Positions 6,367-61,171 of a stretch of 64,000 nt of DNA are shown here, in pieces. A model generated the notes under the pieces. The model did not search any database, was not told the DNA's origin, and saw only the letters and a program-made list of their open reading frames with translations. Position 1 is the first letter of the stretch, and the number at the start of each line of letters is the position of its first letter. A program made the position numbers and the translations under genes. This stretch comes from Microbacterium mitrae (GTDB lineage Bacteria > Actinomycetota > Actinomycetes > Actinomycetales > Microbacteriaceae), in assembly GCF_008017445.1 (NCBI RefSeq), contig NZ_VRSW01000003.1, positions 170,279 to 234,278 on the forward strand, written 5' to 3'.

Positions 6367-6476
6367 AAAGCAAAACCCCCGCCATATAGAAGCTACGCGG
6401 GGGTTTCTAGGATCACTGTAATGATGATCCTTGTGGCTCCGACCGGCATCGACCCGGTGACCGCGCGATTTTCAGT
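6367..6476. repeat. tRNA-Phe-derived attachment-site copy B
   Basis: The second displaced copy of the 110-bp tRNA-Phe 3'-end segment. It has a handful of substitutions relative to 10614–10723 (for example GACCCGG for GATCCGG, and CCGCGCG for CCTTTCG near the anticodon arm). The terminator arms are intact. It shares flanking sequence with copy A on both sides but not with the intact tRNA. It separates the TAC unit from the ATPase–partner unit. Confidence 0.85.
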
Positions 6477-6615
6477 TGGATGCGGTGGGGTAGTGGGTGC
6501 TCGATGGTCATCGTTTGCCGCGTGATTCCGAGGAAGTCGACATGGTCGGCCGTGGCCCGTGCGAGGTGGCTTCCGCAGTACTACCGGCACAGGGCCGGTA
6601 CGCAGCCACCGATTC

Positions 6616-7584
6616 TCAGGTACCTAGATGATCCGTGATGATGCCTATGAAGACAGTGTCTACCGTCCGTTGCTCGCCCCCTATCTCCACGGCCTTCTGG
6701 CCGACGGCGAAGTGGATGCGGTTTATGTTGGGCCTTAGCTTTGTGTGCCATTCGCAACGAACGCTCTGATCGCCAAACTGGAAGGTCCGCTCGGCCATCG
6801 CTGCGGCGTTCCTTCGTGTATTGCTATTCTCGGGCGACGCGGCAATCCCGAGCGAGCCCAGAGCGGACTGGCGTGCGGTCGTTTCGGTCTCGGATGCCCA
6901 TATCTCAAGAACCTCATCGTTGAGCGCTCCCAGATGCTGCATTAGGCCGGGTACCACCTCGTCGGCACTACCGCGTAGCGAGTTGGCTCTGCTCCACGCT
7001 GAAGGGTGGAACGTCAAGACGGGGAACATGCTTGAAGCATGTTCTTTCATCGCATCCAGACTGGCGCCGTACTCTTCCGCTACCGAGGCGCGCATTGCTC
7101 GAGCTCTGTTTCGCGCTTGCGTTGACTTGCTCGCAGTTTCGAACTCGAGAAAGAGTGCTGGCGCCGTGCACTGATCGCATTCGGTGGAGGGTGGGATCCA
7201 GCAAGCTGCGCGAGACTTCAAGGCCACTCGAGCCCCTTGGCCTGTGGCAGCAATATCTGTGGCGAGGCGGGAGGCGTTTTCTGGCGACCCCATCTCTGGC
7301 AGATACCTCGCCACAAGATGTTCGCACACAGCGCGCGCGCCAGAGGTGGCAGACAAACCGCGAGACGAGTACTGGCCGACTATTCGCCAGAAGTCGTTCT
7401 GCGCTATAGCGGTCGGAGGTGTACCCGCAAGTTCTTCGAGCGCGCGCAAGGTTGAGGGGCCGAGGCGAGGGCCTTTGTCTTCTGCGCACGCGAGCATGCG
7501 ATCCCAGAACGCGACGTCGGTGGCGCTTTCTACCGACGGTACAACGTACTCTGGGTCGAGCAGATGAATCGACGAATTAGGCAT
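6616..7584 (-). CDS. Unclassified partner of the DUF3696-type ATPase (candidate effector)
   Basis: A 322-residue protein from ATG 7584, whose start codon lies inside the end of the ATPase gene (8-bp overlap), so the two are translationally coupled. The first ~150 residues are helical. ECDQC (CxxC) near residue 145 suggests a small metal site or structural pair. The middle is Ala/Arg-rich helix. The last ~55 residues (CEWHTKLRPNINRIHF..., ending VFIGIITDHL) look like a compact strand-rich domain in the style of RelE/ParE-like toxins. That comparison is by eye and weak. Two-gene ATPase–effector pairs are common in defence islands, which is the main reason to suspect an effector role. No family was recognised. 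Confidence 0.6.
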   Translation of the reverse strand: MPNSSIHLLDPEYVVPSVESATDVAFWDRMLACAEDKGPRLGPSTLRALEELAGTPPTAIAQNDFWRIVGQYSSRGLSATSGARAVCEHLVARYLPEMGSPENASRLATDIAATGQGARVALKSRAACWIPPSTECDQCTAPALFLEFETASKSTQARNRARAMRASVAEEYGASLDAMKEHASSMFPVLTFHPSAWSRANSLRGSADEVVPGLMQHLGALNDEVLEIWASETETTARQSALGSLGIAASPENSNTRRNAAAMAERTFQFGDQSVRCEWHTKLRPNINRIHFAVGQKAVEIGGEQRTVDTVFIGIITDHLGT

Positions 7585-9313
7585 TCGTGATTCCCTGCGA
7601 ACGTTCGATGTTTTTGCGTAGTATTTCCCGGATGTCCTCCTCGGCTGAGGACAGGAACCCGGCTGGCCACTCGTCGAGATCACCAAATTCGGTGAGGCCG
7701 AGTTTGCGAGCGATGGCACCATGCGCCGACGGCTCAACGAAAGTGATGTCAACCGCATGAGGCCTCAGAATGCCCTCCGCCGCGCGCCTTCGGATCCGCG
7801 TGATGAAGGCTTCGCTGTGTGTCTCCACGATGAGTGAAACATCAGGGCGAGCTCGGAGCAGGAAATCGGCGAGGCGCGCCTGCACCGCCGGATGAAGATG
7901 AAGCTCTGGCTGCTCAACAATAAAGACTGATGCATGTGGAGACCTCAAGAGGCCGACCAGAAGCGGAAGAGCTTGGCTTACGCCAACACCAACTGACGTG
8001 AGGTCCCGTGTCTGGCCGTTGATCTGAAGGTCGAAACCGACGCCAAGCTTTCCTTGTGGTCTTGCAACCACATCGTCGCCTATCTCAAGGTGAGCCAGCC
8101 ACTGGTTGACTGCAACAGACAACGGCGCGATTCGCGGTTCACCCGCTGGGGTTTGATAATTGACGAGCGACGAGTCGCCGCGGGACAAGACGGCGGCACT
8201 GAATTCGCCTCGCGTCCCCACTGGCAGCCCTCGCGCAAGTTCATTCCAATGATTCCAGACAACCCGCGGCTCATCGCGCAGCGGCCCGAGGTACTGCACT
8301 CGCCTTGAGAGCTCGTCGAGTGCGTCGCTGAGCATTGTCAGCGCGACGTAGCTGTCGCCCATCGCCTCCTCAAGTTGGCCTTCGAGTACACCCTCCTGCA
8401 TCCTGTAGCCCCACCTTGAACCCTTGACGGTCAGGAAGGCCCAGGGGGAACGAGACCGATACTCGGCAGCAACGTCGAGAACTCTTTCCTGGTCCTCGTC
8501 CTTCAGCTCGTGCCATGCTCTTTTCAGGCCCATCGGAGTCACCGCACGCGAGCGAAGGATCTCGTGAATCGGAATGTTCTCCAGTTGCTCGCTCTGAGCG
8601 GCCTCCGAGAGCACACGCAAGAATTCTCGGACTACGGACGGTGTGAATGCAGGCGAACCATCCAGTCGGTGGAGTGATGCGTCCTCCTCCGCGAGCCACC
8701 CCGCGAGGGACTTCCGATAGCGGGTCCGAACATCTTCGGGATTGAGTAGCTGAACCACAACGACAGGGCGGAGGCCCTGCATTGCGACGTAAGTGCGGAG
8801 CTGTCGGCTCCCGTCTCCTAGTAGCGACTTGACATGCAGCACGTCCCTTTCGCCGAGCTGGCGGGTCGCTTGGAGTGCCAGTTCCACGTCGCTTCCGCGA
8901 GAGTTTTGACGCGCAAGAACGAGCGGTAGGCCCTCGAAATCTGGTCCGTCGATGGTTACCTTTCGAGCGCGAAGTGTGGCGTGATCCTCCGCAGCGACCA
9001 ACTCATATGACGCGACCCGAACGACTGGACTACCCCCGCGTGCCGTGTATCCGCTCTCCAGACTCAGCTGGATTCCTATGCTCTTGCTCTGGGCGCCTTC
9101 TCGAACCAGATCCTCAGCATCGCCGAGGCGGACGAGAGGACCGTTCAGCACGATGGGACCATCGTCGTACAGGCTTTGGGCGGCCAATAGTAAGGACTGG
9201 ATTGTCGAAGACTTGCCGCTACTGTTTACGCCTGTCATGACGGTGGCGTGACCGGGACTGATGTCGAGGTCAGCCCTTGCTATGCCTTTAAAATCTGTGA
9301 TTTGCCAGCGCAC
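7577..9313 (-). CDS. AAA ATPase, SMC/OLD-like with DUF3696-type C-terminus
   Basis: A 578-residue ATPase. Walker A is GVNSSGKSS near residue 30, after an N-terminal strand FKGIARADLDI. A long middle region follows, then TSVGVGVSQALPLL (signature-like), Walker B FIVEQPELHLHP near residue 475, and the switch ETHSE. The end, EFGDLDEWPAGF, is the hallmark of DUF3696-type ATPases. Such proteins act with a nuclease or other effector in several defence systems; no classified system was matched here. There is no TOPRIM domain, so it is not a plain OLD nuclease. It is the first gene of a two-gene operon with 6616–7584, inside the tRNA-Phe island. Confidence 0.82.
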   Translation of the reverse strand: MRWQITDFKGIARADLDISPGHATVMTGVNSSGKSSTIQSLLLAAQSLYDDGPIVLNGPLVRLGDAEDLVREGAQSKSIGIQLSLESGYTARGGSPVVRVASYELVAAEDHATLRARKVTIDGPDFEGLPLVLARQNSRGSDVELALQATRQLGERDVLHVKSLLGDGSRQLRTYVAMQGLRPVVVVQLLNPEDVRTRYRKSLAGWLAEEDASLHRLDGSPAFTPSVVREFLRVLSEAAQSEQLENIPIHEILRSRAVTPMGLKRAWHELKDEDQERVLDVAAEYRSRSPWAFLTVKGSRWGYRMQEGVLEGQLEEAMGDSYVALTMLSDALDELSRRVQYLGPLRDEPRVVWNHWNELARGLPVGTRGEFSAAVLSRGDSSLVNYQTPAGEPRIAPLSVAVNQWLAHLEIGDDVVARPQGKLGVGFDLQINGQTRDLTSVGVGVSQALPLLVGLLRSPHASVFIVEQPELHLHPAVQARLADFLLRARPDVSLIVETHSEAFITRIRRRAAEGILRPHAVDITFVEPSAHGAIARKLGLTEFGDLDEWPAGFLSSAEEDIREILRKNIERSQGITNA

Positions 9314-9554
9314 CTTTGAGCCTTTCGCTAACTGCGGAGATCGGATGTGGAGGGGCTGCCGATCCGAGGTGCGCGTGGACCGCTGCTGAGTGAGGGCCGC
9401 ACGCGCCGCAGGGTTGGTGGCTCCGACGGTGCCCAGTCCGGCCCGGGGCCGGTCTGGAATGAGTATAGAAAGTCCTCACAGCTCTGGTCCTGCTGACCGC
9501 GCTGTGGCGGGTTCGAATGGGGGATCGAGCCGCATGCGGAATCAGAAATCGGCG

Positions 9555-9971
9555 TCAGTTTCCAGGCAGACGTCGATTAGGCTCACAGGTGGCGATGGAA
9601 GAACGGATATGAGTGTTGGCTTCGTTGATGCTCCGCTGATCGTGTCGCGAACGGCGATATCCGTCCGGTCGGTACCCCGCCGCAGGAGGCCCTGTCGCGA
9701 GGTCCCCTGCGCCTTCGCGATCCGCATGACGTTTGGTCGCGCCTGGTGATGCGTAGGCGGAGGTCAGTGAGCGCAAGTCCTTGGACAGTTCGTTGATTCG
9801 ATTGGTTAACTCGATTGACTTCGCGAGAGCTGGCTCGATGTCCCCTGCGGTCGGGGAGAACGGGACGGCGCGTAGCTCCGCGCTTGCGTCGTCGATCTGC
9901 GTTTCGACGAGACGAATGAGGAGGAGTCGTGCGGGAACGACCCCCCGCTCGGCCAGCCTCGTATTGGTCAT
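9555..9971 (-). CDS. Hypothetical protein, possible coiled coil
   Basis: From ATG 9971 the frame encodes 138 residues. The first ~75 look protein-like and helical (RLLLIRLVETQIDDASAELRAV, then ALAKSIELTNRINELSKDL). The remainder is Arg-rich and low in structure, so the natural gene may end earlier or carry a frameshift near 9775. It was not recognised. It stands alone upstream of the ATPase operon on the same strand, separated from it by about 240 bp in which nothing was identified. Confidence 0.35.
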   Translation of the reverse strand: MTNTRLAERGVVPARLLLIRLVETQIDDASAELRAVPFSPTAGDIEPALAKSIELTNRINELSKDLRSLTSAYASPGATKRHADREGAGDLATGPPAAGYRPDGYRRSRHDQRSINEANTHIRSSIATCEPNRRLPGN

Positions 9972-10272
9972 GAACAAGATTCTACGCCTCTTCACGTCTG
10001 TGATCGATGGGACCGGTTGGCTCTCGTTGGTCGCAGCACGCTTGCGCCGCCCGAGCACCCAAATTGCCCGGTGCACGCGTTGCTGGATCTCACGGAATCG
10101 ATATTGGCAACATTTTTGCGGTGCTCACGCAATTATGACTTGATGCAGTTGGTCAAAAGGTGATGCGTCGTTACCTCGACTCGTCGGGGCTATCTAGTTC
10201 CAGAGGCGACGAATGGAGGCAGAGATCATGCTCGTGGCCTGGCAGGCGCAGTGTCGGCCAGGAAGGGGGAGT

Positions 10273-10594
10273 GGTGAGCCGTGATGAAGAGCTGGACGAG
10301 ATCGTTCTCGCCAGGTTCGAGGAAGATTCGCAATTGACGCGACGTGAGGCGGCCGCACGGTGTCGTGCGCCGGTGCGGGTATTCGCCTCGCTGATGTGGC
10401 AGGCGCGTGTGTCGTTTCCGGACGCGCGTAGGAAGCCCATTCTTTGGGGTTTCCAGCATCGATCCGTTCCTGGGCGATGGTTGCGCTCATGCCTTCGGTT
10501 AATTGGTAGTGTAAGGCGCGAAGGCAGCTGCGGGAGGCATCTGCTGAGGCGTCGCGTTCCGTTTCGACTCGTCTTGTTCGCTCAACGGCGGTGA
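10273..10594 (+). CDS. Questionable small ORF next to tRNA-Phe
   Basis: A GTG at 10273 preceded by AGGAAGGGGGAG opens 106 residues (VSRDEELDEIVLARFEEDS...). The first ~50 residues are plausible: acidic helix, then LTRREAAARCRAP, reminiscent of a small DNA-binding motif. The tail is Arg/Trp/Leu-rich and unconvincing. It sits where an excisionase or integrase gene might be expected, but no such similarity is visible. The surrounding 9972–10613 holds nothing else I can support. Confidence 0.25.
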
Positions 10595-10613
10595 ATCCAA
10601 CCGGAGCCGACGC

Positions 10614-10723
10614 AAAGCAAAACCCCCGCCATGTAGAAGCTAGGCGAGGGTTTCTGGGATCACTGTAATGATGATCCTTGTGGCTCCGACCGGCATCGAT
10701 CCGGTGACCTTTCGATTTTCAGT
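10614..10723. repeat. Attachment-site copy C (overlaps the intact tRNA-Phe)
   Basis: The parental copy of the 110-bp repeat. Its right 43 nt are the 3' part of the functional tRNA-Phe, and its left part is the downstream hairpin AAACCCCCGCC...GGCGAGGGTTT that should terminate the tRNA transcript. Copies A and B stop matching at the anticodon loop, which places the likely crossover in or beside that loop. Confidence 0.85.
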
Positions 10724-10753
10724 CGAACGCTCTACCAACTGAGCTACAGAGCC
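10681..10753 (-). tRNA. tRNA-Phe (GAA)
   Basis: The minus strand folds into a complete 73-nt cloverleaf. The acceptor GGCTCTG pairs with CGGAGCC, the D-arm is GCTCAGTTGGTAGAGC, the anticodon loop CTGAAAA holds GAA, and the discriminator base is A. CCA is not encoded. It is the integration target of the island to its left. Confidence 0.97.
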
Positions 10754-10821
10754 TCACGGCACAAGTGTCGTGATCTGATATGCGAAAGGCCCTCTCGAAG
10801 AAAGGGCCCGTCGCTCCAGAG

Positions 10822-10895
10822 CGACCCTGACGGGACTTGAACCCGCGACCTCCGCCGTGACAGGGCGGCACGCTAACCAACTGCGCTACAGGGCC
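10822..10895 (-). tRNA. tRNA-Asp (GTC)
   Basis: A 74-nt minus-strand cloverleaf. GGCCCTG pairs with CAGGGTC, the anticodon loop CTGTCAC holds GTC, and the T-arm GGGTTCAAGTCC is canonical. It lies between tRNA-Phe and tRNA-Glu in the same orientation, probably as one transcript. Confidence 0.97.
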
Positions 10896-10916
10896 ATGAG
10901 ATATTCAGTTGTATTG

Positions 10917-10989
10917 TGACCCCAACGGGATTCGAACCCGTGCTACTGCCGTGAAAGGGCAGCGTCCTAGGCCACTAAACGATGGGGCC
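10917..10989 (-). tRNA. tRNA-Glu (TTC)
   Basis: A 73-nt minus-strand cloverleaf. GGCCCCA pairs with TGGGGTC (one G-T), the anticodon loop CTTTCAC holds TTC, and the T-arm is GGGTTCGAATCCC. It is the first gene of the Glu–Asp–Phe tRNA set in transcription order. Confidence 0.97.
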
Positions 10990-11278
10990 GGAGTGGCAGG
11001 CTACCGAGGTAGTTGCTCCTTGCCGACACCCAAGCATAAGGGGATTTTCGCCGCAAAACCAATTCGAGCGTGAATCTCGCGCGTGGCGCGCGTGCCGGAA
11101 CCATAAAAAAGCCGGATCAACAAAAGAAAAATTCTCGACGCAAAGATTCGCCACCGCGAGCGAAACCACCCCTTCAGCCCAAATCCCCGCGCGCACGAAT
11201 GTCGCGCACCCCCGTTACAAATGTGACTGATGTTGTTAGTGTGGTTTGGTGACTGGCCCGCAGTCGAGGGAGTTTCTT

Positions 11279-48748: not shown

Positions 48749-48973
48749 ACGATACTGCCTGATCATAACGATATTGGCATTTAAATTCGGGTGGCGCTCA
48801 CAGGCGGCTATCGCGGTGAAAACCATCCTTTTCTCGCGCGAGAACAGGATCGCGCGGTACATTCTTCACGATGTCGACGGACGCGCCCATTTGTAGAACC
48901 CCTCCTAAAGTGTCGGGTTCGGGTGAGAGGGTTCGTATACTCGGAGGGCTTGCCCACAGAAGGAGATATTGCC

Positions 48974-50686
48974 GTGCGTGAATCGCTGTACACCGCCCCT
49001 GTCGACGACTACCGCTTTCTGTATTCGCGCGCGTTCGGGCTTGACCTCATCGCCCGTTCCACCGATGGTGCCCTCAACGCCGAAGACGCAACCGACATTG
49101 TTCAGCACGCAGGCGATTTTGCCGCCAGTGTGCTGGCGCCGCTGAGTCGCATTGGCGACACCGAGGGTGCCCGCCTCGTTGATGGCACCGTGCAGTTGCC
49201 CGACGGTTACGCCGAGGCGTATCGCGAGATGGTTGAAGGCGGATGGATCAGCGCCGAGGCGCCCGCCTCCGCGGGCGGTGACGGCCTGCCCGACGCCGTG
49301 CGCGCCGCGCTGGGCGAGATTTGGAACTCGGCAAACGCCGCTTTTGCGCTCAGCTGGCTGCTGACGCAGGGTCAGATTCACGCGCTCGATGCCAAGGCAT
49401 CTGACGCGATCCGTGAGACCTATTTGACCAAGTTGGTTTCGGGGGAGTGGACCGGAACCATGAACCTCACGGAGCCGGAGGCTGGCACCGACCTCGGCGC
49501 CATTCGCACGATGGCGACCCCGCAGCCCGATGGCTCGTGGTCGCTCAAGGGCGACAAGATTTTCATCACGTGGGGCGACCACGAGGTGGCCGAAAACATC
49601 GTGCACCTTGTGCTTGCCCGCACGCCAGATGCCCCCGAAGGTGCCCGCGGACTCTCGCTCTTCGTGGTTCCGAAGTACCTGGTGAATGCAGACGGAACGC
49701 TCGGCACCCGCAACGGGGTCAGCACCGTGTCGCTCGAGCACAAGCTCGGAATTCACGCGAGCCCGACGGCCGTGCTCAACTACGACGGCGCGGTTGGCTA
49801 CCTCGTTGGCGATCTGCACGGCGGTCTTGCCGGCATGTTCGTGATGATGAACTCGGCACGTGTTGGCATGGGTTTTCAGGCCACCGGCATCTCGGAGCGC
49901 GCCTACCAGGGCGCGCTGCAGTACGCCACGCAGCGCCTGCAGGGTCCCGTCATCGGCCGTGACGGCGGGGCGCCCATCTCGGAGCACCCGGATGTGCGTC
50001 GCCTGCTGTTGTCGATGCGCAGCGACATCTATGCGATGCGTGCGCTCGGCGTCTACACCGCCGATCTCTTTGACCGTGCCGCCGAAGACGGAACCGGTGA
50101 ACTCGCCGAATTCTTTGTTCCGATCTTGAAGGGGTGGGCGACAGAAGACGCGCTCATCGTCACCAGCGACGGCATTCAGGTGCACGGCGGCATGGGATTC
50201 ATCGAAGAGACTGGTGCTGCGCAGCATTACCGCGACGCGCGCATCATGCCGATCTATGAGGGCACGACCGCGATTCAGTCCAACGACCTGGTCGGTCGCA
50301 AGGTGATTCGCAACCAGGGCGCGACCGCCGAGGCGCTGTTCGTCGCCATGGGTGAGACCGTCACGGCCCTTTCGGCCTTCGACCACCCGGTGGCAACCCG
50401 CCTGGCCGATCGCCTCACCCGCGCCATTGACTCCGCGCGCCGGGCAACCGCGGCGCTCGTCGGTTTCGCCGCCTCCCCGCGTGACGCGTACGCGGTGAGC
50501 GTGCCGTATCTCATGCTGCTTGGCACTCTTTCGGGCGGCTGGATGCACGCGCTCGCGGCGATCGCCGTGCTCGACGATGGCAAGACAACGTCCGAGCGCC
50601 TCACCATCGCCGACTTCTACGGCAGCCACCACTTGCCGCGCGTGCACGCCCTCGCCGAGACGGTCGCCGCGGGGGAAGTTGCCTAA
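48974..50686 (+). CDS. Acyl-CoA dehydrogenase
   Basis: A 570-residue flavoprotein oxidising acyl-CoA to enoyl-CoA. GTG 48974 follows AAGGAGATATTGCC. It belongs to the long form (FadE5/AidB-like length) with an extra N-terminal domain (ESLYTAPVDDYRFLYSRAF...). Core blocks are MNLTEPEAGTDLGAIRT, GDKIFITWGDHE and the GGMGFIEETGAAQHYRDARIMPIYEGTTAIQ region that normally supplies the catalytic Glu (IYEGT). A −10-like TATACT at 48938–48943 may be its promoter. A strong terminator follows. It is probably linked functionally with the thiolase 2.3 kb downstream. Confidence 0.93.
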   Translation: MRESLYTAPVDDYRFLYSRAFGLDLIARSTDGALNAEDATDIVQHAGDFAASVLAPLSRIGDTEGARLVDGTVQLPDGYAEAYREMVEGGWISAEAPASAGGDGLPDAVRAALGEIWNSANAAFALSWLLTQGQIHALDAKASDAIRETYLTKLVSGEWTGTMNLTEPEAGTDLGAIRTMATPQPDGSWSLKGDKIFITWGDHEVAENIVHLVLARTPDAPEGARGLSLFVVPKYLVNADGTLGTRNGVSTVSLEHKLGIHASPTAVLNYDGAVGYLVGDLHGGLAGMFVMMNSARVGMGFQATGISERAYQGALQYATQRLQGPVIGRDGGAPISEHPDVRRLLLSMRSDIYAMRALGVYTADLFDRAAEDGTGELAEFFVPILKGWATEDALIVTSDGIQVHGGMGFIEETGAAQHYRDARIMPIYEGTTAIQSNDLVGRKVIRNQGATAEALFVAMGETVTALSAFDHPVATRLADRLTRAIDSARRATAALVGFAASPRDAYAVSVPYLMLLGTLSGGWMHALAAIAVLDDGKTTSERLTIADFYGSHHLPRVHALAETVAAGEVA

Positions 50687-50706: not shown

Positions 50707-50743
50707 CGGAACCACGTGCTCGCGACCCGAGCACGTGGTTCCG
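50707..50743 (+). terminator. Terminator built from an inverted CGGAACCA pair
   Basis: The 16-bp perfect stem CGGAACCACGTGCTCG/CGAGCACGTGGTTCCG has a 5-nt loop and is followed by TCTTTCG. It lies 21 bp after the acyl-CoA dehydrogenase. The stem ends are the two orientations of the window's repeated motif. Confidence 0.9.
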
Positions 50744-50763
50744 TCTTTCGTCTCCTGGGCGCG

Positions 50764-50830
50764 CGAAACGCACTCTGGTCGGCGAGAAACATGCGGCGCG
50801 GTGGGGTTTCGCCGACCAAAATGTGTTTCG
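50764..50830. repeat. Intergenic inverted-repeat element with long imperfect arms
   Basis: A 27-nt left arm (starting CGAAACGCACTCTGGTCGG) pairs imperfectly with a 25-nt right arm (ending CCGACCAAAATGTGTTTCG), with a 2-nt gap and three mismatches, around a 15-bp centre. It lies between the dehydrogenase terminator and the TetR gene. 50687–51002 holds no gene. Confidence 0.6.
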
Positions 50831-51002
50831 GGGAGGTGGGAGGGTGCGCGGTGGCGGAACCAGGCAGGGGCGGGTGCGCTCGCATATGGACGGGGGAGGA
50901 GCCAGGGGGCGGAAAGGGCGACGCTTCTGGCGGAGGGCACCTCGATGCGCGGCGAACAGTGGTAGGACAGATACGAAACAAACGCTTGGTGAGGAGACAA
51001 CG

Positions 51003-51617
51003 ATGCCAGCAAGTGTCGGCGCACGTGATGAGCCGAGTTCAGGGCGCCGCGAGCAGATTCTAGCCATCGCCGCACGCCTGATGGCGAGGCAAGGCTATGC
51101 GGCGACGACGGTTCGCGAAATCGCGGATGAAGCGGGGATTCTGTCTGGCAGCCTGTACCACCACTTCACGTCAAAAGAGGCGATTCTGCTCGAGGTGCTG
51201 CGCGGGTTTACGAGCACACTCGTTGCAGAGGTGGAACTGCTGGCGCAAGAAACGAGTAGTCCGCTGGAGCGGCTCGACAGACTCGTCGCCGTGGTTCTTG
51301 ACACCATTGAACGTCAGCCAGCAGCGGTGGGGCTGTACCAGCAGGAGTCCGCCTATTTGGCGACCGTTTCGGGCTTCGAATTCTTGAGCGAAGATACCGA
51401 ACGCATCGAGGCCGTTTGGATCGCGACCATCGAGGAGGCGCAGGAGTCTGGGGACTTTCGGGCCGACCTCGATGCCGCCTTCACCTTCCGTTTTATCCGT
51501 GACGCGGCGTGGTCAACGGCGCGCTGGTTCCGCCCCGACGGACGCCACACGACGAAAACCCTCACCGATCATTTGCTGAGCTTGCTGCACACCGGCATTC
51601 TGACGCCCGCGGAGTGA
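51003..51617 (+). CDS. TetR-family transcriptional regulator
   Basis: A 204-residue regulator. ATG 51003 follows GAGGAG by 6 nt. The N-terminal HTH is YAATTVREIADEAGILSGSLYHHFTSKEAIL. The C-terminal ligand domain resembles KstR2-type regulators (ILSGSLYHHF...; AAWSTARWFRPDGRHT). Given the acyl-CoA dehydrogenase and thiolase around it, an acyl-CoA ligand is plausible. No operator was identified with confidence. Confidence 0.9.
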   Translation: MPASVGARDEPSSGRREQILAIAARLMARQGYAATTVREIADEAGILSGSLYHHFTSKEAILLEVLRGFTSTLVAEVELLAQETSSPLERLDRLVAVVLDTIERQPAAVGLYQQESAYLATVSGFEFLSEDTERIEAVWIATIEEAQESGDFRADLDAAFTFRFIRDAAWSTARWFRPDGRHTTKTLTDHLLSLLHTGILTPAE

Positions 51618-51627
51618 TTGGCCCGGA

Positions 51628-52035
51628 CTATTCGCCATCGGCGAGTGGGCCGAGGTGAACGAGCATGGCGTCCACCGCGTCGTCCGCATTGCCGGGCGCG
51701 CCGCTTGCCGCCCACTCAATGAGTGCCGCAAACATGACGGATTGGTAGGCGGCGGCGATCGCGTGAGCCACGGCGGGTGGCAGCGCGGGCCGTCGCGAGG
51801 CGATGAATGAAGCCACCTCGGCGATCCACGGGCTGTGTGCGCTCGGTGCGAGCGCCGCGATTTCTGGCTCGGTCATCACGAGTCGAAAGAAGTCGGGGCC
51901 AAATTCGGCGACTTTCGGATCGCGTTCGAGCATTCCGCTCAACGCGGTTGCACCCGGAACCGTGCTGACGCCGAAGACGGCGGGAATGCTGGCAGATCCC
52001 GAGATGGAAAGGTGGTCGATACGACCGGGTCACAC
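51628..52035 (-). pseudogene. Truncated TetR-family regulator (C-terminal domain only)
   Basis: About 130 codons are open on the minus strand. Residues from SGMLERDPKVAEFGPDFFRLVMTEPEIAAL through AAYQSVMFAALIEWAASGAPGNADDAVDAML read as the C-terminal ligand domain of a TetR regulator. The DNA-binding HTH that should precede it is missing: upstream there is a stop and then the divergent hydrolase gene. It is convergent with the intact TetR gene, 10 bp apart. It is probably a decayed regulator; a stand-alone ligand domain starting at ATG 51942 is an alternative. Confidence 0.6.
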
Positions 52036-52077
52036 GCTGGCGTCGTGAGGTGCGCCCTGGTTCCGTAGGCTAGCAAC

Positions 52078-52920
52078 ATGGCTACGAACCCCGGCGCACC
52101 CGACGACAGCCTGTCGGACGCTGTGACGGAGGCCGCGGGCGCGCCGGCTCTTGAAGGTCACGTCGGAACCTTTTTGTGGCAGGGCGCCGAGCTCGTGTAC
52201 GAAGAATTCGGCGCAGGTAGCAGCCCGGTGTTCGTGCTGGTTCACGGTATTGGCATGGGGCGCGTGGTGTTCGCCGAGCTGATCGATGACCTCAAGCGCC
52301 TCGGCCGCGTTATCGCGATTGATCAGCCCGGTTACGGCGATTCGCCGGAACCACCGCGCACCCCGACGATGGAGCGCACCGCCGACATGGTGGCTGCGTT
52401 GTTGCGCGAGCGCGGTGTCTCGCAGGTCACGGCAATTGGGCATTCGATGGGTACCCAGGTCGTGGCCGAGCTCGCGGTGCGCCACCCCGACCTTGTCGAC
52501 CGCCTCGTACTGATCGCGCCAACGGTCGATGTGTCGGCGCGGCACATCGCCGTTCAGGCAGCCCGCCTGGTGCGTGACCTGTGGGGCGAGAGCCCCAAGG
52601 TCGTGATGCTCGGCGGTTTCGAGTATTTGCGAGCGGGTCCCAACCTCATCCGCAAGATGCGCGCCATGATGGTGCATCGGCCGGAGAGGAGTTACCCGCG
52701 CATCACCCAGCGAACGCTCGTGCTTCGCGGCGAACGCGACTACGTGGTTCCGGAACCATGGGCACGGCAAGCGGCAGCGCTCATTCCCAACGCGCGGTTT
52801 GACACGCTGCCTGACACGAGCCACCAGTCGATGATCCGCAACGCCGGGCCCACCACCCGCCGCATCATGGACTTTCTGCGGAGTGAGCGGTTCGAGCCTG
52901 CGGCAGGGCTCGCGGGTTAG
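52078..52920 (+). CDS. Alpha/beta-hydrolase
   Basis: A 280-residue hydrolase. The oxyanion strand is LVHGIGMGRVVF, the nucleophile elbow is GHSMG (Ser near residue 123), the acid is in RGERDYVVPE and the His in DTSHQSM. It has no signal peptide. Esterase, lipase or C–C hydrolase activity is possible. The neighbours suggest lipid-related metabolism. It precedes the thiolase gene by 87 bp. Confidence 0.88.
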   Translation: MATNPGAPDDSLSDAVTEAAGAPALEGHVGTFLWQGAELVYEEFGAGSSPVFVLVHGIGMGRVVFAELIDDLKRLGRVIAIDQPGYGDSPEPPRTPTMERTADMVAALLRERGVSQVTAIGHSMGTQVVAELAVRHPDLVDRLVLIAPTVDVSARHIAVQAARLVRDLWGESPKVVMLGGFEYLRAGPNLIRKMRAMMVHRPERSYPRITQRTLVLRGERDYVVPEPWARQAAALIPNARFDTLPDTSHQSMIRNAGPTTRRIMDFLRSERFEPAAGLAG

Positions 52921-53007
52921 GGTGATTCACGCGGGTGTATCTGCGGTGACGCCGCGGTGACGCCGCTGGCAGGCACGACGCACAGACTCAAACAAGAGTG
53001 GGGCACC

Positions 53008-54159
53008 ATGGCAGAGGCATATATCGTCGACGCGGTTCGCTCACCGGTTGGCAAGCGAGGCGGGTCGCTTTCCCAGATTCATCCGATCGACCTCGGGGCA
53101 CACTCATTGCGTGCGCTGGTTGATCGAGTCGGCATTGACCCGGGCGCGATTGACGATGTGATCGTCGGAACCATCGACGCGATCGGTGGGCAATCGGGCA
53201 ATGTTGGGCGATCCGCGTTGCTCGCCGCAGGCTTTCCCGAGCACGTGCCCGGTGTCACGATCGACCGCCAATGTGGGTCAAGCCAGCAGGCCGTGCACTT
53301 TGCGGCGCAGGCGGTGATGTCCGGAACACAAGACCTCGTCATCGCTGGTGGTCTACAAAACATGTCGCAGGTTCCGATTCTCTCGGCGGCAACCGTCGGT
53401 GAGCAGTTCGGATTCTCGATGCCGTACGCCGAATCTCCGGCGTGGAACGCGCGATACCCGGGTGAGGAGATTTCGCAGTTCCGTGGTGCTGAGTTGATCG
53501 CGCAACAGTGGAACATCACGCGCGAGGAGATGGAACAGTACGCGCTCACGAGTCATCAGCGGGCGGCAGCCGCACAAGAAGCGGGGCGGTTCGCCAACGA
53601 AATCGCGCCGCTTAACGGCTTGGACTTCGACGAGGGTGTGCGTCGCGACACCACACTGGAGCGCATGTCGGGGCTCAAACCGCTCACCCCAGGCGGACGC
53701 CTGACAGCGGCCGTCGCCTCGCAAATTTCTGACGCTTCATCTGCCGTGCTGATCGCCTCAGAACAGGCAGTGAAAGATCACGGCCTCACCCCGCGCGCCC
53801 GTATTCACCACATGTCGGTGCGGGGTGACAGCCCCGTTCTGATGCTGACGGCGCCCATCGCGGCAACGCAGCACGCGCTTGCGAAGACCGGCCTGACGGT
53901 TGATGACATTGACCTGTTCGAAGTTAATGAGGCGTTCGCCTCCGTTGTGCTTGCGTGGATGGCGGAGACCGGCGCGCCGCACGGCAAGGTCAACGTCAAC
54001 GGCGGAGGCATCGCGCTGGGTCACCCCATTGGCGCCACCGGCACGCGCATTCTCGCGACCATGCTCAACGAGCTCGAACGCCGCCAGGGGCGATACGCGC
54101 TACAGACCATGTGCGAAGGCGGCGGGCTCGCAAACGTCACCATCATTGAACGCCTCTGA
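53008..54159 (+). CDS. Acetyl-CoA acetyltransferase (thiolase)
   Basis: A 383-residue thiolase. ATG 53008 (MAEAYIVDAVRSPVGKRGG) gives the normal start; a longer frame upstream has no support. The acyl-accepting Cys is in IDRQCGSSQQAVHFAAQ (about residue 89), the catalytic His in NGGGIALGHPIGATG, and the second Cys in MCEGGGLANVTII. The CEGGG in place of the common CIGGG is a feature of one thiolase subgroup. It may finish beta-oxidation with the nearby acyl-CoA dehydrogenase. Confidence 0.93.
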   Translation: MAEAYIVDAVRSPVGKRGGSLSQIHPIDLGAHSLRALVDRVGIDPGAIDDVIVGTIDAIGGQSGNVGRSALLAAGFPEHVPGVTIDRQCGSSQQAVHFAAQAVMSGTQDLVIAGGLQNMSQVPILSAATVGEQFGFSMPYAESPAWNARYPGEEISQFRGAELIAQQWNITREEMEQYALTSHQRAAAAQEAGRFANEIAPLNGLDFDEGVRRDTTLERMSGLKPLTPGGRLTAAVASQISDASSAVLIASEQAVKDHGLTPRARIHHMSVRGDSPVLMLTAPIAATQHALAKTGLTVDDIDLFEVNEAFASVVLAWMAETGAPHGKVNVNGGGIALGHPIGATGTRILATMLNELERRQGRYALQTMCEGGGLANVTIIERL

Positions 54160-54189
54160 TCGGGCTTTCAACAGGCGAGAGCGTTGAGA

Positions 54190-54474
54190 CTAGCGGCTGT
54201 AATAGAAAGCCCAGCCGCGATTGGTAGACGAGTAGAAGCACCCGCCGGTCCAGTAACCCTGACTGCGAAAACTCAGCCGCTCGGCGTTGCACAGACCCAC
54301 CGTGGGGAAGAAGCCTTCCAGGGGTTGTTCGACCAGCGGGCCGGGGCCGACGGCCGGAACCACGACGGCAGCCGCCGGGGCTGCGACGGCGGTGGGAGCG
54401 GCGGCAGATGCTGCGACGGGCGCGGCGAGGAGGAGTGCTGCGGCGCAGACGGTGGCGGCCAAGTAACGCTTCAT
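54190..54474 (-). CDS. Small secreted protein
   Basis: A 94-residue protein. A clear signal peptide (MKRYLAATVCAAALLLAAPVAASA) leads to an Ala/Val/Pro linker. The ~45-residue compact C-terminus is PLEGFFPTVGLCNAERLSFRSQGYWTGGCFYSSTNRGWAFYYSR. Two Cys could form one disulfide, and the end is aromatic. No family was recognised. The start ATG 54474 follows GGATG-type sequence at modest spacing. It lies downstream of the LuxR regulator on the same strand. Confidence 0.7.
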   Translation of the reverse strand: MKRYLAATVCAAALLLAAPVAASAAAPTAVAAPAAAVVVPAVGPGPLVEQPLEGFFPTVGLCNAERLSFRSQGYWTGGCFYSSTNRGWAFYYSR

Positions 54475-54583
54475 GGTGACATCCTTCGGTGCGCGGTCGT
54501 CGCGCCGAAGCGCTCTCGACCGCGATGAGTGCTTGGGCACAGCATAGGTGCGGTTGCTGAATACCGGCCTCGGGTGAACAGCG

Positions 54584-57088
54584 CTACGACTCGATCCCGA
54601 TCCGCAACAGCACGGAGGGGTGCAGACCCTTACGGTCAACGGCGAGTTTGCGCATGGCCCGGTACAGATGCGACTCGACCGTGCGAACCGAGAGAAACAG
54701 ACGCTGGGCGATGTCGGCGTTACGGTGCCCCTGGGCTGCCAACAACGCGATTTCGTACTCGCGCGGCGTCAATGGTTCCGCCTTCTCATCCATTGCCCGC
54801 AACCGAGAACTCACGGTGCGCTTGAGTGGGCGCAGTGATTTTTCGAAGGCGTGATCGCCGGAGACGAGGGGGGCGAGTGCGGTGAGGGCGGCCTGAGCCT
54901 GCTCGCCGCCGCCCATGGATTGAAAGGTGAACGCGGCGCGGCGCAGACGCATGGGGTCGGCATTGGCCACACCGATGCAGAAGTCCACCATGGCGCCCGG
55001 AATCGTGGCGTCTTCGAGGCCCGCAATCTCGTCTACCTGTGCGGTGGCGCCGGTGGCGCCGGTGGCGGCGGTGGCAATGAACTGCTGCGCCAGGCGGGTC
55101 AGCGGAATGGACTGGTCAGGCAGGGCGTCGATGGCCTCGGTGAAGGTGTGCTGCCCGCGCTGCATCTCGACGGTGAGCGCGAGAACGAGTGACACTGCCT
55201 GCGACAGCGCGGAGGTTACTGGCGAGAACAGGGGAGCGGGCTCGCGCCCAGCGGCCGCCGCCAATACCCATGCCGACGTGTCGGTACGGCTCTCGCGGGT
55301 GAGAAAACGCAGGCCGCCGTGCAGCTCTTCCTGCTGGTCATGCTGGGCGGCGCTGATGAGGTGACAGATGGTGGCCGACGTGCTCATGGAGAGGTCGTCG
55401 TGCAGCAAGCCCTCGGTCAAGAAGCGGTCGGTGACCTGCTCAATGCTGCTCGGCACGCGTTGGCCGGCGGCGCCAAATGCGCAGGCAATGACGGTGAGCG
55501 CGTCGAGCGTCATCCGGCGGGTGAGGTCGGCCTTCAGCCCGCGCTCGAACGTGGTCGCGGTCGCGAGTTGAGCGAACCCTTCGGCCGTGGCGCGCAACGC
55601 TGCGTGATCGAGTCGCTGCGCGTGCACGAGCGAGTCGACGCTGTAGGCGCGCAGGGCGGCCAACGTGTCGCGATGCGACGGAACCAGCAGCGGCGCGGTG
55701 AGGCGCAGTGCCTCATCGAATTCGCCGCGATCGAGAGCCGCGGCCGCGACCAGGCTGGCGCGATGAGTTTCGAGGCCATAGCGATCAATCCGCGCGCTTT
55801 GAACACCGATTTCGACGAGAAGTTCATCGACACCTTCAGCGCCCGACGTCAGCGGAATCTGCAAACACAGCGCCCAGAGGCAGAGGTCGTAGACAGGCAG
55901 GTTCATGCCGGCGCGAAGATCGGCGGTGAGACGTTCAAAGTCGTCGCCCTCTTGCCGCGCCGTGCGCAGCAGTCCGTCACTGGTGGCAGCAGGATGCATG
56001 GTGAGAATGCGTCGGGCAAGCGCGGCAGCTTGTTCCGACTCGCCGCGACGGCGGCTGAGCCACATGGCCATGCTGAGCACGGCAAGCTGTGCATCGGGGT
56101 CGATCAGGGCGCGAAGAGTGGCATCGATCGTGAGAGCACGCGCGGCGACACCAACCTCGCTCTCCGTACACTCGGCGTCAATGACGACCGACGCGCAAAT
56201 GTCGGCAATGATGTCTTGCGCGAGCGGTGTCATCTCTGGCTCGGTCATCATGCGCAGTGCCGCCTGGATCGGCCCCGGGATGCACAGGGTGTCGCGGTGG
56301 TCGCTGATGACGTGAGATTCAATCAAGAGTGACAGTTCGACTCGATTAAAGAAGCGGCGGATGCGCGTAAAGCTCACCCCGACCAGGGGGAGCAGGCTGC
56401 CGGCGAAGCGTTGCAGCGCCGGCGGCAAGCCAGCGAGAACGGATGAGGCTTCGATCAGTGTGCGTCGCGATGGCGTCGACAGACTGTCTTCTTCAACCGG
56501 AGCTTCACTGAGGCTTTGCAAGAGCGACATCGCGATACGCGGAAATCCGCCGCTCTGCGCCCAGATCCACCGACGCTCGACGAGAGTTGGTTCGGTTGGC
56601 ATCGGCGTGATGCCAACCTGCTCTTCGATGAGGGCGTCGCACTGAGCCAATGTCAGAGGCATCAACGTGATTGTTGTGGCGCGCGAGATGATCGGCGCGC
56701 GCGTCTGGCTCGAGGTTGACGCGAAAGGGTGCGGCGGTCGGCGAGTGGCGAACAGGCGCACGCCGTCCACCCGCTGCAACTCGGAGAGGCGGTTGAGGTC
56801 GGCCGAGCTCAGGGTGTCGAGGTCGGTGATCACGATCGCGCGCTCGCCACCCGAAACGGTTGCCGGCTGGTCGAGACGAATGGTGCGCCAGCCCTCGGCA
56901 CGCGCCACCCGTGCCACCGTGGCTCGCAGCATCGATTTGCCCAGGCCGGTTTCGCCCTCAACGATGACATCGCGCTGCGACGCGAGATTGTCGAGGATCG
57001 CCGCGACGGTCTCCGCGCGGCCGTAGTACATCGGCGTAGAAGAGTCGGTGAGTATCGTCCTCGGAGACGAGAGATCTGTGTGTGACAT
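54584..57088 (-). CDS. Large ATP-binding LuxR-family regulator (LAL-like)
   Basis: An 834-residue regulator. The N-terminal P-loop is VEGETGLGKSMLRATVA near residue 44, with Walker B-like IVITDLDTLSS near residue 90. About 550 residues of helical repeat follow. The C-terminal LuxR/GerE HTH (about 770–834) is LTPREYEIALLAAQGHRNADIAQRLFLSVRTVESHLYRAMRKL. Such proteins act as ligand- or ATP-switched activators. A target is not evident; the adjacent small secreted protein is one candidate. The start ATG 57088 is the first reasonable one. Confidence 0.88.
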   Translation of the reverse strand: MSHTDLSSPRTILTDSSTPMYYGRAETVAAILDNLASQRDVIVEGETGLGKSMLRATVARVARAEGWRTIRLDQPATVSGGERAIVITDLDTLSSADLNRLSELQRVDGVRLFATRRPPHPFASTSSQTRAPIISRATTITLMPLTLAQCDALIEEQVGITPMPTEPTLVERRWIWAQSGGFPRIAMSLLQSLSEAPVEEDSLSTPSRRTLIEASSVLAGLPPALQRFAGSLLPLVGVSFTRIRRFFNRVELSLLIESHVISDHRDTLCIPGPIQAALRMMTEPEMTPLAQDIIADICASVVIDAECTESEVGVAARALTIDATLRALIDPDAQLAVLSMAMWLSRRRGESEQAAALARRILTMHPAATSDGLLRTARQEGDDFERLTADLRAGMNLPVYDLCLWALCLQIPLTSGAEGVDELLVEIGVQSARIDRYGLETHRASLVAAAALDRGEFDEALRLTAPLLVPSHRDTLAALRAYSVDSLVHAQRLDHAALRATAEGFAQLATATTFERGLKADLTRRMTLDALTVIACAFGAAGQRVPSSIEQVTDRFLTEGLLHDDLSMSTSATICHLISAAQHDQQEELHGGLRFLTRESRTDTSAWVLAAAAGREPAPLFSPVTSALSQAVSLVLALTVEMQRGQHTFTEAIDALPDQSIPLTRLAQQFIATAATGATGATAQVDEIAGLEDATIPGAMVDFCIGVANADPMRLRRAAFTFQSMGGGEQAQAALTALAPLVSGDHAFEKSLRPLKRTVSSRLRAMDEKAEPLTPREYEIALLAAQGHRNADIAQRLFLSVRTVESHLYRAMRKLAVDRKGLHPSVLLRIGIES

Positions 57089-57523
57089 TGCGAACTGCCT
57101 GTGGGAGGTGAATTGGTGCTGCGTGAACTGCTACTTCTTGGTGCTGTGGTTGCGTGCCCAAAACCGCGTTCTCGGAAAAGAGGATTGGAACCAGATATGC
57201 CATGTTCGGATTTTCAACGACCGTATTCCGAATCGGCGTTGAATTGTCCGAATTCGCCCATGCTCAGGGCTTCCCTGGCACAGATTCACGGGTTTCTCCG
57301 TGAAATATGACCCCATCGCCGTAATTTTCTCAGCGTGTCTGCGTAAGTGGAAGTGCCTGAGTCCGTACAATCACCCCCTACAGCGACAAATGCTCACGAT
57401 TACCTCTCCTCGGAGAGGGAATGTGACGCACTCAGTACGGAGACAACATCTGATGTTTCAGGCCCTGAGCGCCGCGGATCTGACGGTGAGGGTGCAGTGG
57501 CGTAGCGGCCCCAGAAACAGAAA
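57089..57523. other. Intergenic region upstream of the LuxR regulator
   Basis: About 435 bp without a supportable gene. It is noticeably AT-richer than its surroundings (for example around 57130–57400), fitting a promoter region for the large regulator on the minus strand. No clear operator or RNA motif was recognised. Confidence 0.5.
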
Positions 57524-57565
57524 ACGTCGTCCTCGGAACCGCAGTGCGGGTTCCGAGGACGACGT
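57524..57565 (-). terminator. Terminator of the threonine aldolase gene with an inverted CGGAACC pair
   Basis: A 17-bp perfect stem ACGTCGTCCTCGGAACC/GGTTCCGAGGACGACGT with an 8-nt loop. On the minus strand it is followed by TTTTCTGTTTC. It lies 15 bp after the aldolase stop and is the second terminator in the window whose stem contains both orientations of the repeated motif. Confidence 0.92.
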
Positions 57566-57579
57566 GTGCAGCGGGGAGG

Positions 57580-58647
57580 TTAGCGCGTGGTCTCGTGTGC
57601 GATGAGCTGCACCAAAGCGTCGATATCGGCTTCGCTAGTGTCAAAGCTGCACATCAGGCGCACTTCGCGGTTGGCGGCATTCCAGTCATAAAAACGGAAC
57701 GTCTCGCGCACGCGATCGGCGACACCCTCGGGCAGGGTCGCAAAGACGCCGTTGGACTGAGTGGGCTGCGTAAACCCGACGCCGCGAATGGAACCATCGG
57801 CAGCGCCGGCCTCGAGAGCGGAGCGCAGACGCTGAGCCATTGCGTTGGCGTGCGAGGCGTTGCGCAACCACAGGTCGCCTTCGAGCAGCGCGATGAGCTG
57901 CGCCGAAACGAAGCGCATCTTCGATGAGAGCTGCATGTTGAGCTTGCGGAGATATTTGAGGCCCGTCGCGGCTTCTTGGTTCATCACCACGATCGCTTCG
58001 CCCAGCATGGCGCCATTCTTGGTTCCGCCGAAGCTCATGACATCAACGCCGGCATCCCGGGTGAAGGCACGCATGGGCGCACCCAGCGCCGCGGCGGCAT
58101 TCGCCAGGCGAGCGCCATCCATGTGCACGGTCATGCCGAGGCTGTGAGCGTGAGACGCGATCGCGCGGATCTCATCGATGGAGTACAGCGTGCCGAGCTC
58201 GGTGGTCTGAGTGATCGAAACAACCAGCGGCTGCGCGCGGTGCTCATCACCCCAGCCCCACGCCTCTTTGTCGATGAGCTCGGGCGTGAGCTTGCCGTCG
58301 GGGGTGTCTACGGTCAGCAGCTTGATGCCGCCGACGCGTTCGGGGGCGCCGCCCTCGTCAACGTTGATGTGAGCGGTGGAGGCGGCAATAACGGCTCCCC
58401 AACGGGGGATCATCGACTGGAGGCCGACAACGTTTGCGCCCGTGCCGTTGAACACCGGAAAAGCTTCAACGCCCTCGCCCAGATGAGCGGCAAAAACGGC
58501 CTGCAGGCGCTCACTGTACTGGTCATCGCCATACGCGATCTGGTGCCCGCCGTTTGCTTCGGCGATGGCCGCGAGTACCTCCGGGTGAATGCCGGAGTAG
58601 TTGTCGGAAGCGAAGCCGCGTACGTTCACATCGTGCAGATTGGTCAC
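57580..58647 (-). CDS. ltaE: Low-specificity L-threonine aldolase
   Basis: A 355-residue PLP enzyme cleaving threonine (and allo-threonine) to glycine and acetaldehyde. It has the beta-eliminating lyase fold. The N-terminal FASDNYSGIHPEVLAAIAEANGGH and the DDQYSERLQAVFAAHLGEG segment are typical, and the PLP lysine lies in VMSFGGTKNGAMLGEAI. Length is normal. It is monocistronic with its own strong terminator. Some homologues act on phenylserine or other beta-hydroxy amino acids. Confidence 0.92.
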   Translation of the reverse strand: MTNLHDVNVRGFASDNYSGIHPEVLAAIAEANGGHQIAYGDDQYSERLQAVFAAHLGEGVEAFPVFNGTGANVVGLQSMIPRWGAVIAASTAHINVDEGGAPERVGGIKLLTVDTPDGKLTPELIDKEAWGWGDEHRAQPLVVSITQTTELGTLYSIDEIRAIASHAHSLGMTVHMDGARLANAAAALGAPMRAFTRDAGVDVMSFGGTKNGAMLGEAIVVMNQEAATGLKYLRKLNMQLSSKMRFVSAQLIALLEGDLWLRNASHANAMAQRLRSALEAGAADGSIRGVGFTQPTQSNGVFATLPEGVADRVRETFRFYDWNAANREVRLMCSFDTSEADIDALVQLIAHETTR

Positions 58648-60750: not shown

Positions 60751-61171
60751 CCAAATGTCGGACGCGTTTGGCGACGCGCCGGCCGATCGGCCCCTGTGGG
60801 GGTATTCGGAACCACTTCTCCGACATTTGGCAACGGCGCGAGCCGCGGGGGTGGTTCCGCGAGCCTCGGGGGTGGTTCCGTAACCCGCGGTGGTCGTTCC
60901 GCGTTAAATCCGGCGGCCTTGGGTGCGGCGAAGCTTCCCAAATGTCGGAAGAATTTCGCGACGCGCCGGTGGATGGGCCCCGGTGAGGGTATTTGGAACC
61001 ATGTCTCCGACATTTGGCAACGGCGCGCGGCGCGGGCGTGGTTCCGTGTAGCGCCGTGCCGATTCCCGAGGCTTCGGGCGCGGCGGAGTTCCCAAATGTC
61101 GGACGAATTTGGCGACGCGCCGGTGGATGGGCCCCGGTGAGGGTATTTGGAACCATGTCTCCGACATTTGG
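60751..61171. repeat. Triple tandem inverted-repeat element, AAATGTCGG type
   Basis: Three units (60751–60830, 60938–61017, 61092–61171) are each bounded by CCAAATGTCGGA and TCCGACATTTGG and are exactly 80 bp long. Interiors share GGCGACGCGCCGG, a GTGAGGGTATTTGGAACCA-like stretch and GGCAACGGCGCG beyond the right arm. Units 2 and 3 are nearly identical, and unit 1 is diverged. Flanks carry GGTTCCG motifs. The open frames across this tract on both strands reflect high GC, not genes. Nothing else was found between 60638 and 61256. Confidence 0.85.

Follow-up and report, generated by a model that had tools for sequence, protein, structure and literature searches.

Facing copies of an abundant motif form terminator-like hairpins in a small Microbacterium clade and may point to an uptake sequence

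Two motif-bearing hairpins in the window

The 64,000-nt stretch of the Microbacterium mitrae genome analysed here (contig NZ_VRSW01000003.1; hereafter the window) contains two long hairpins that lie shortly behind genes and carry on their arms facing copies of one short word, CGGAACC on one side and GGTTCCG on the other, which is referred to below as the motif (Table 1). The first hairpin begins 20 nt past the stop of an acyl-CoA dehydrogenase-like gene, whose start was placed by our own gene caller (the longest open reading frame spans 48791-50686), and its motif pair sits at the base of the stem. The second lies 14 nt past the stop of a gene of the beta-eliminating lyase family, and its motif pair adjoins the loop; the T-run is present on the minus strand only, so that this hairpin reads as a minus-strand terminator. 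A first-pass annotation of this DNA had described both sites as strong terminators with perfect stems of 16-17 bp and the motif on opposite arms, and its coordinates, stems and arms all hold. The T-run that it reported after the second hairpin is there, on the minus strand, and the first hairpin also has a T-rich tail.

These hairpins are the two longest of 19 terminator-like sites between positions 45000 and 64000. Their folding energies are -34.9 kcal/mol (z = -8.1) and -35.2 kcal/mol (z = -7.4), respectively, and none of 200 shuffled sequences folds as well as either. Both combine a GC-rich hairpin soon after a stop codon with a T-rich tail, the configuration of intrinsic terminators, and both are very likely terminators, predicted to end transcription in vivo. 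The motif is so dense in the window (120 copies vs 13.2 expected) that a single copy inside a stem would be unremarkable on its own.

Table 1 Positions of the two hairpins, their motif copies and the preceding genes in the window
Feature	Positions	Strand	Remarks
Acyl-CoA dehydrogenase-like gene before hairpin 1	48974..50686	+	Acyl-CoA_dh domains
Hairpin 1, intrinsic-terminator type	50707..50743	+	16 bp perfect stem, loop 5, tail TCTTTCGTCT
Motif copy CGGAACC(A), 5' arm of hairpin 1	50707..50713	+	
Motif copy (GGTTCCG on +), 3' arm of hairpin 1	50737..50743	-	
Hairpin 2, intrinsic-terminator type	57524..57565	-	17 bp perfect stem, loop 8, tail TTTCTGTTTC
Motif copy CGGAACC, 3' arm of hairpin 2 read on - strand	57534..57540	+	
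Motif copy (GGTTCCG on +), 5' arm of hairpin 2 read on - strand	57549..57555	-	
Beta-eliminating lyase family gene upstream of hairpin 2	57580..58647	-	

Conservation of the hairpins

The genome holding the window (G000) was compared with two motif-rich relatives, G425 and G486, and with a motif-poor one, G394. The motif pair is kept on both arms of both hairpins in all three motif-rich species (for hairpin 1 at loci L252 in G425 and L251 in G486, for hairpin 2 at L057 and L058, respectively). Behind the dehydrogenase gene, G425 and G486 keep CGGAACCA..TGGTTCCG with T-rich tails; the interior has drifted and the inner stems are partly imperfect. The lyase gene is followed by GCGGTCCTCGGAACC..GGTTCCGAGGACCGC in G425 and by AAGCGGCTCTCGGAACC..GGTTCCGAGAGCCGCTT in G486. 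Compensatory changes were counted for the lyase hairpin only: five of its 16 pairs are changed on both sides among the three species, and nine inner pairs, including the motif, are invariant, a pattern that indicates that the stem is kept by selection. As a baseline, only 44 of 181 stem 7-mers are common to G000 and G425 in 22 orthologous hairpin pairs that lack the motif. The 27 motif-poor members among 30 lyase orthologs contain neither of the two motif words in the roughly 127 nt that follow the stop, and no such motif pair was found in the two motif-poor acyl-CoA dehydrogenase orthologs examined. Conservation in three species is independent support for the window hairpins.

Abundance and distribution of the motif

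The motif itself is a larger finding than the two hairpins. The 2.82 Mb genome of G000 has 4768 copies of CGGAACC (2397 on the plus and 2371 on the minus strand), against 179 + 195 copies of the reversed word, and the preferred form of the motif, CGGAACCA, accounts for 1460 + 1457 = 2917 copies. Finer statistics were obtained from samples of 864 kb of G000 (the window and 40 further stretches) and 800 kb of G425, which together make up 1.66 Mb, or about 31% of G000 and 28% of G425, and from 400 kb of G394, with genes predicted by our own simple caller. Measured against an order-2 Markov model, the enrichment of CGGAACCA is 19.7-fold in the G000 sample, 18.2-fold in that of G425 and 0.45-fold in that of G394. 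Among GGNNCC words only GGAACC is strongly enriched, and the most enriched one-letter deviants carry their change at one end of the word, at the first or the last letter (TGGAACCA, 139 vs 24 expected; CGGAACCT, 191 vs 35).

The taxonomic range is narrow. Three of 366 Microbacterium genomes examined are motif-rich, namely G000, G425 (1268 + 1249 copies) and G486 (1186 + 1186), and the remaining 363 have roughly 16 to 115 copies per strand. In surveys of the family (150 genomes from 85 genera) and of the class (394 genomes), neither of which included G425 or G486, G000 alone is high. The three motif-rich species form one clade in a 32-row lyase phylogeny (support 100/96). As a separate observation on this gene, record L175 (JASDDH010000015.1), titled Planococcus sp. 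APC 4015, carries a lyase with 82% identity to that of Microbacterium and is probably mislabelled.

The motif resembles the DNA uptake sequence (DUS) of Neisseria and the uptake signal sequence (USS) of Pasteurellaceae: it is a short non-palindromic word, enriched on both strands at about one copy per kb. Of the sampled copies, 760 lie on the plus strand and 737 on the minus strand. With skew used as a proxy for the unmapped replication direction, 738 copies fall on the G-rich strand and 759 on the other, and the correlation with GC skew is 0.03, so that no strand preference of the Chi type is seen. Copies are denser in intergenic than in coding DNA (2.88 vs 1.54 per kb in G000, 2.21 vs 1.57 in G425, 0.20 vs 0.08 in G394), above all behind genes: in G000 and G425, density reaches 3.93 per kb within 60 nt of gene 3' ends vs 1.22 per kb within 60 nt before starts. 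Copies also show weak flank preferences for G at -6/-5, +15/+16 and +24, positions one or two helical turns apart; these are seen in G000 as well as G425, and again when the intergenic copies of G000 are taken alone, although codon phase adds noise.

Copies in coding DNA are also kept more often than control words. Across 164 ortholog pairs with 76% DNA identity, 147 of 272 coding copies (54%) are kept, vs 1254 of 4918 and 968 of 5314 permuted 7-mers; when the copies are split by orientation and phase, each of the four classes that exceed 20 sites retains 51-56%, and the other two comprise 2 and 7 sites. At 103 G000 sites aligned to G394 the word is never identical; the aligned blocks have no gaps, and each site differs by between one and six substitutions, from which it follows that the motif sites arose by point change in place. 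Like those of DUS and USS, the copies thus arise by substitution and are conserved across related species.

Known uptake sequences are scarce in recently acquired DNA, and the motif is unevenly spread in the same manner. The G000 sample has six stretches of 5 kb or longer with no motif copy (0.26 expected), and that of G425 has three (0.33 expected). Ten proteins from four such G000 regions were scanned and include two integrases, one TrwC relaxase, two helicase/DUF499 proteins and one metal-type ATPase, with no match for the remaining four; this gene content suggests that the regions were acquired. Stretches without or nearly without the motif are L053 1-14995, L024 5623-15852, L052 8336-18720 and, in the window, 5906-11095. 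L053 carries the two integrases and the TrwC relaxase, and L052, with a helicase and a DUF499/Swt1-HEPN protein, has the look of a defence island.

The motif in terminator-like hairpins

Unique hairpins near gene ends with a stem of at least 12 bp were counted (87 in the G000 sample, 108 in the G425 sample); loops longer than 10 nt were excluded, so that loose motif hairpins are missed, and expectations were derived from how densely the motif occurs in the non-hairpin parts of these 3' regions. The first-pass annotation had proposed computing the fraction of predicted terminators that carry the motif. In the samples, the motif lies in the stem of 14 of 195 strong 3'-end hairpins, vs 6.45 expected (P = 0.007), and together with 14 isolated facing pairs at 3' ends (see below) this means that the two window hairpins are not the sole examples. 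Taken singly, G425 shows the excess (9/108 vs 3.4 expected, P = 0.008) and G000 does not (5/87 vs 3.1, P = 0.20). If all ten window hairpins and the G425 lyase ortholog are removed, 11 of 184 remain (6.1 expected, P = 0.047). Hairpins with at least five T among the eight tail bases carry the motif in 6 of 31 cases (0.97 expected); three of these six are the two window hairpins and the hairpin of the lyase ortholog in G425. The word was found in the stem of one of 26 hairpins in the motif-poor G394 sample.

Motif-pair terminators are a small minority of the terminator-like signals in the sampled genomes. The first-pass annotation had likened them to Neisseria and Haemophilus, where uptake sequences are commonly found as inverted pairs in terminators. 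The facing arrangement and the gaps do match; the share does not, and motif terminators are not common here in the way that they are there. In excerpts of the published survey (Kingsford and others, PMC1852404), the uptake motif is present in 54-57% of the best Neisseria terminators and in 16-29% of those of Pasteurellaceae, whereas the Microbacterium samples reach about 7%, by a different detection method. Facing pairs are enriched in terminators, as in the known systems, in a share that is much smaller than published.

Orientation and spacing of motif pairs

Pairs were called isolated if a cluster held exactly two motif copies with a gap of at most 26 nt, and were assigned to the 3'-end zone within 60 nt. 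Isolated pairs at gene 3' ends comprise 14 facing, 2 back-to-back, no overlapping and 8 same-direction pairs, a facing share well above one quarter (P = 0.0005); once the window's two pairs and the G425 orthologs of both are set aside, 10 facing, 2 back-to-back and 8 same-direction pairs remain. In coding DNA the isolated pairs are 20 facing, 16 back-to-back, 19 overlapping back-to-back and 25 same-direction, and near 5' starts pairs are rare (one facing, one back-to-back). When every pair in the 60-nt zone at gene 3' ends is counted (gap 0-26 nt, G000 and G425), the facing ones number 19 (3.9 predicted from density), the back-to-back ones 5 (3.9 predicted) and the same-direction ones 38 (7.8 predicted), in addition to 7 overlapping back-to-back pairs. 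The facing and same-direction classes thus each exceed density about fivefold, an excess expected from clustering, and the comparison of facing pairs with density was dropped as strong evidence. The raw number of inverted pairs is likewise weak evidence: the whole genome has 57 CGGAACC..GGTTCCG pairs at gaps of 3-20 nt (a control with the reversed pattern gave none), of which the density of copies alone gives 36.3.

The gaps between facing copies peak at 21 nt (12 pairs vs 1.34 expected from distant or 1.92 from near offsets, P = 9e-7), where 5 of the 12 pairs are located inside genes, and at 8 nt (8 pairs, P = 8e-4). These peaks are only suggestive. Facing and back-to-back pairs at gaps of 3-20 nt number 16 vs 17 in G000, without bias, and 21 vs 13 in G425. 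In the uptake genomes described in the consulted portion of PMC1852404, facing pairs outnumber back-to-back ones in the majority of cases, by 226 to 5 in N. meningitidis and 50 to 25 in H. influenzae, although H. ducreyi has 6 facing and 8 back-to-back pairs. Hardly any same-direction pairs occur there, and gaps spike near 8 and 19-22 nt.

Two arrangements of neighbouring copies may be recorded here. GGTTCCGGAACC is a perfect palindrome made of two overlapping motif copies and occurs 16 times in the G000 sample and 37 times in that of G425, in coding and intergenic DNA. Same-direction arrays of short period stand in intergenic DNA at L038 12438-12582 (about 9 bp), L019 8083-8221 (about 15 bp) and L039 14046-14240.

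Relation to known repeated words

Comparisons with known systems draw on excerpts of the cited papers. The motif resembles the neisserial DUS (GCCGTCTGAA) in being a non-palindromic word found about once per kb on both strands, in forming facing pairs behind genes, here as probable terminators, and in having copies that are more conserved than their surroundings (PMC2397512, PMC1852404). Close inverted DUS pairs work as terminators (PMC2397512), although this explanation has been called contentious, many copies being unpaired (PMC2346458). The differences are that same-direction pairs, nearly absent in Neisseria, are common in the Microbacterium clade, that the DUS host is a Proteobacterium and the host of this motif belongs to the Actinomycetota, and that DUS is bound by the minor type IV pilin ComP (PMC6370729, PMC12616744), whereas the prepilin family PF07963 was not found in G000 or G425. 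With the Pasteurellaceae USS (AAGTGCGGT) the motif may share a core with weaker flanking positions, and its gaps of 8 and 21 nt fall at or within those of USS facing pairs (PMC1852404). The USS flanks are A/T-rich, in contrast to the G preferences seen here, and the word, the phylum and the envelope differ.

Micrococcus luteus, in which transformation depends on Flp/Tad pili, is likewise an actinomycete and has genes for ComEA, ComEC and the Tad system (PMC6370729); the part of that account consulted mentions no uptake motif. Cyanobacterial HIP1 (GCGATCGC) is also a highly repeated short word with deviations at its ends (PMC4390886), but it is palindromic and tracks methyltransferases, whereas the present motif is non-palindromic and had no match in the two methyltransferase families searched. 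Neisseriaceae and Pasteurellaceae are named in the relevant passage of PMC12616744 as the only known users of such uptake motifs. A search of the openly licensed literature found no report of an actinobacterial or Gram-positive uptake motif, nor of the letters of this motif.

Possible origin of the motif and of its terminators

The repetition of the motif resembles that of the self-recognition tags of transformable bacteria. The favoured explanation is that the hairpins are terminators composed of two facing motif copies and that the motif, at 1-2 copies per kb in a clade of three species, is repeated through biased uptake of DNA; we would give this a probability of roughly 0.5. In such a scenario, a putative receptor in the competence machinery (ComEA/ComEC plus a pilus of the Tad type) would prefer DNA bearing the motif, and recombination with the DNA of kin would spread and repair its copies. 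Two copies that happened to face each other behind a gene would provide a ready-made stem, which mutations creating a T-tail and compensatory changes outside the motif could then fix as a terminator. That the motif acts as an uptake sequence at all is a tentative proposal. Equally tentative is the fuller version, according to which a small Microbacterium clade would use CGGAACCA as its uptake sequence. It would be the first such sequence among Actinomycetota, and also the first in a bacterium that has a single membrane, independent of those of Neisseriaceae and Pasteurellaceae, with a Tad/ComEA receptor and a convergent recruitment into terminators that has the same facing-pair geometry. If so, this would be a third, independent and recent origin of an uptake sequence, in one clade of a large and well-sampled genus with motif-poor relatives at hand. 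One could then look for the genetic change with which such a system begins, weigh selection against uptake bias as its driving force, and learn whether facing pairs end up in terminators as a general by-product.

Several observations weigh against explaining the hairpins by uptake. Only about 7% of strong 3'-end hairpins hold the motif, and G000 alone is not above chance. The crude excess of facing pairs at 3' ends is matched by that of same-direction pairs, only the count of isolated pairs separating the orientations, and adding the seven overlapping back-to-back pairs brings the balance to 19 facing and 12 back-to-back. Overlapping GGTTCCGGAACC copies make back-to-back the commoner orientation overall. 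Compared with coding DNA, 3' ends show a marginal shift from back-to-back to facing pairs (Fisher P = 0.049; P = 0.12 once the four window-related pairs are removed). Same-direction pairs are the commonest close pairs (51 and 21 at gaps of 0-10 nt), many of them in intergenic arrays. The competence genes are common to motif-poor relatives (ComEC in 16 of 16 and T2SSF in 14 of 14 genomes), and the type IV prepilin signature PF07963 was not found in G000 or G425.

These points leave room for other explanations. The motif might be a binding or processing site unrelated to uptake, such as a Chi-like hot spot or the target of a nucleoid or segregation protein, with pairs that became terminators through sheer abundance. 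Its conservation above controls in coding DNA would suit such a site, as would the overlapping palindromes and same-direction arrays, which are atypical of known uptake genomes. Chi and segregation motifs are usually biased toward the G-rich strand. The motif has no such bias; it is denser than sites of this kind usually are and prefers intergenic DNA, mostly behind genes, all of which makes this alternative somewhat unlikely. It is improbable that chance alone is at work, a dense and clustered motif falling into stems with no selection that ties it to termination, even though the G000 hairpins do not exceed expectation, facing and back-to-back pairs are equally frequent in that sample at gaps of 3-20 nt, and same-direction pairs at 3' ends are as enriched as facing ones when clusters are counted. 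What argues for more than chance is the excess in G425, the predominance of facing among isolated 3'-end pairs, which persists when the window pairs and their orthologs are left out, and the retention of both window hairpins in three of three species, set against the low sharing of stem 7-mers in other orthologous hairpins.

Finally, the motif could be a word of the HIP1 type, spread by a repair bias coupled to methylation. HIP1 is also highly repeated and deviates by one letter at its ends (PMC4390886), and the most enriched deviants of the motif likewise change the first or last letter. A HIP1-type word would be a palindrome matching a methyltransferase; the motif is non-palindromic, and enrichment is strong only for GGAACC among the GGNNCC words. 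In a search that covered PF00145 and PF01555, the C5 methyltransferases of PF00145 were not found in G000 and PF01555 proved common to motif-poor relatives (16 of 17 genomes), so that neither family is specific to the clade. This explanation is weakened and appears quite improbable. Biased uptake followed by recruitment of facing pairs into terminators remains the reading that we prefer.

Competence genes and other elements

The genes to which a receptor might belong are present in G000, where ComEA adjoins ComEC and a Tad-type cluster includes T2SSE, two T2SSF and a TadE-like match just below the cut-off. Since competence genes also occur in motif-poor relatives, they leave the restriction of the motif to one clade unexplained. 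PF07963 occurs in 6 of 17 genomes and, among the motif-rich ones, in G486 only; as it was not found in G000 or G425, a ComP-like receptor is not evident and the motif was kept out of the DUS/USS family. The long ComEC frame of G000 (1135 amino acids) was considered as a carrier of an extra domain, a candidate that was rejected: homology ends near residue 754 and the tail is variable in G425 too. Three predicted genes (161, 434 and 158 amino acids) lie within the G000 Tad cluster at L040 8707-11299, and no match to them was found in the corresponding stretches of G425 or G394.

A second interspersed palindromic element is present in intergenic DNA. It has the ends TTCCCAAATGTCGGA ... TCCGACATTTGGGAA and the inner parts GGCGACACGCC / GGCGTGTCGC, and is seen in the window around 60806-60860, in L033, L045 and L047 and at other sites. 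Its word CAAATGTCGG was counted 59 times in the 864 kb sampled from G000, frequently next to clusters of the motif.

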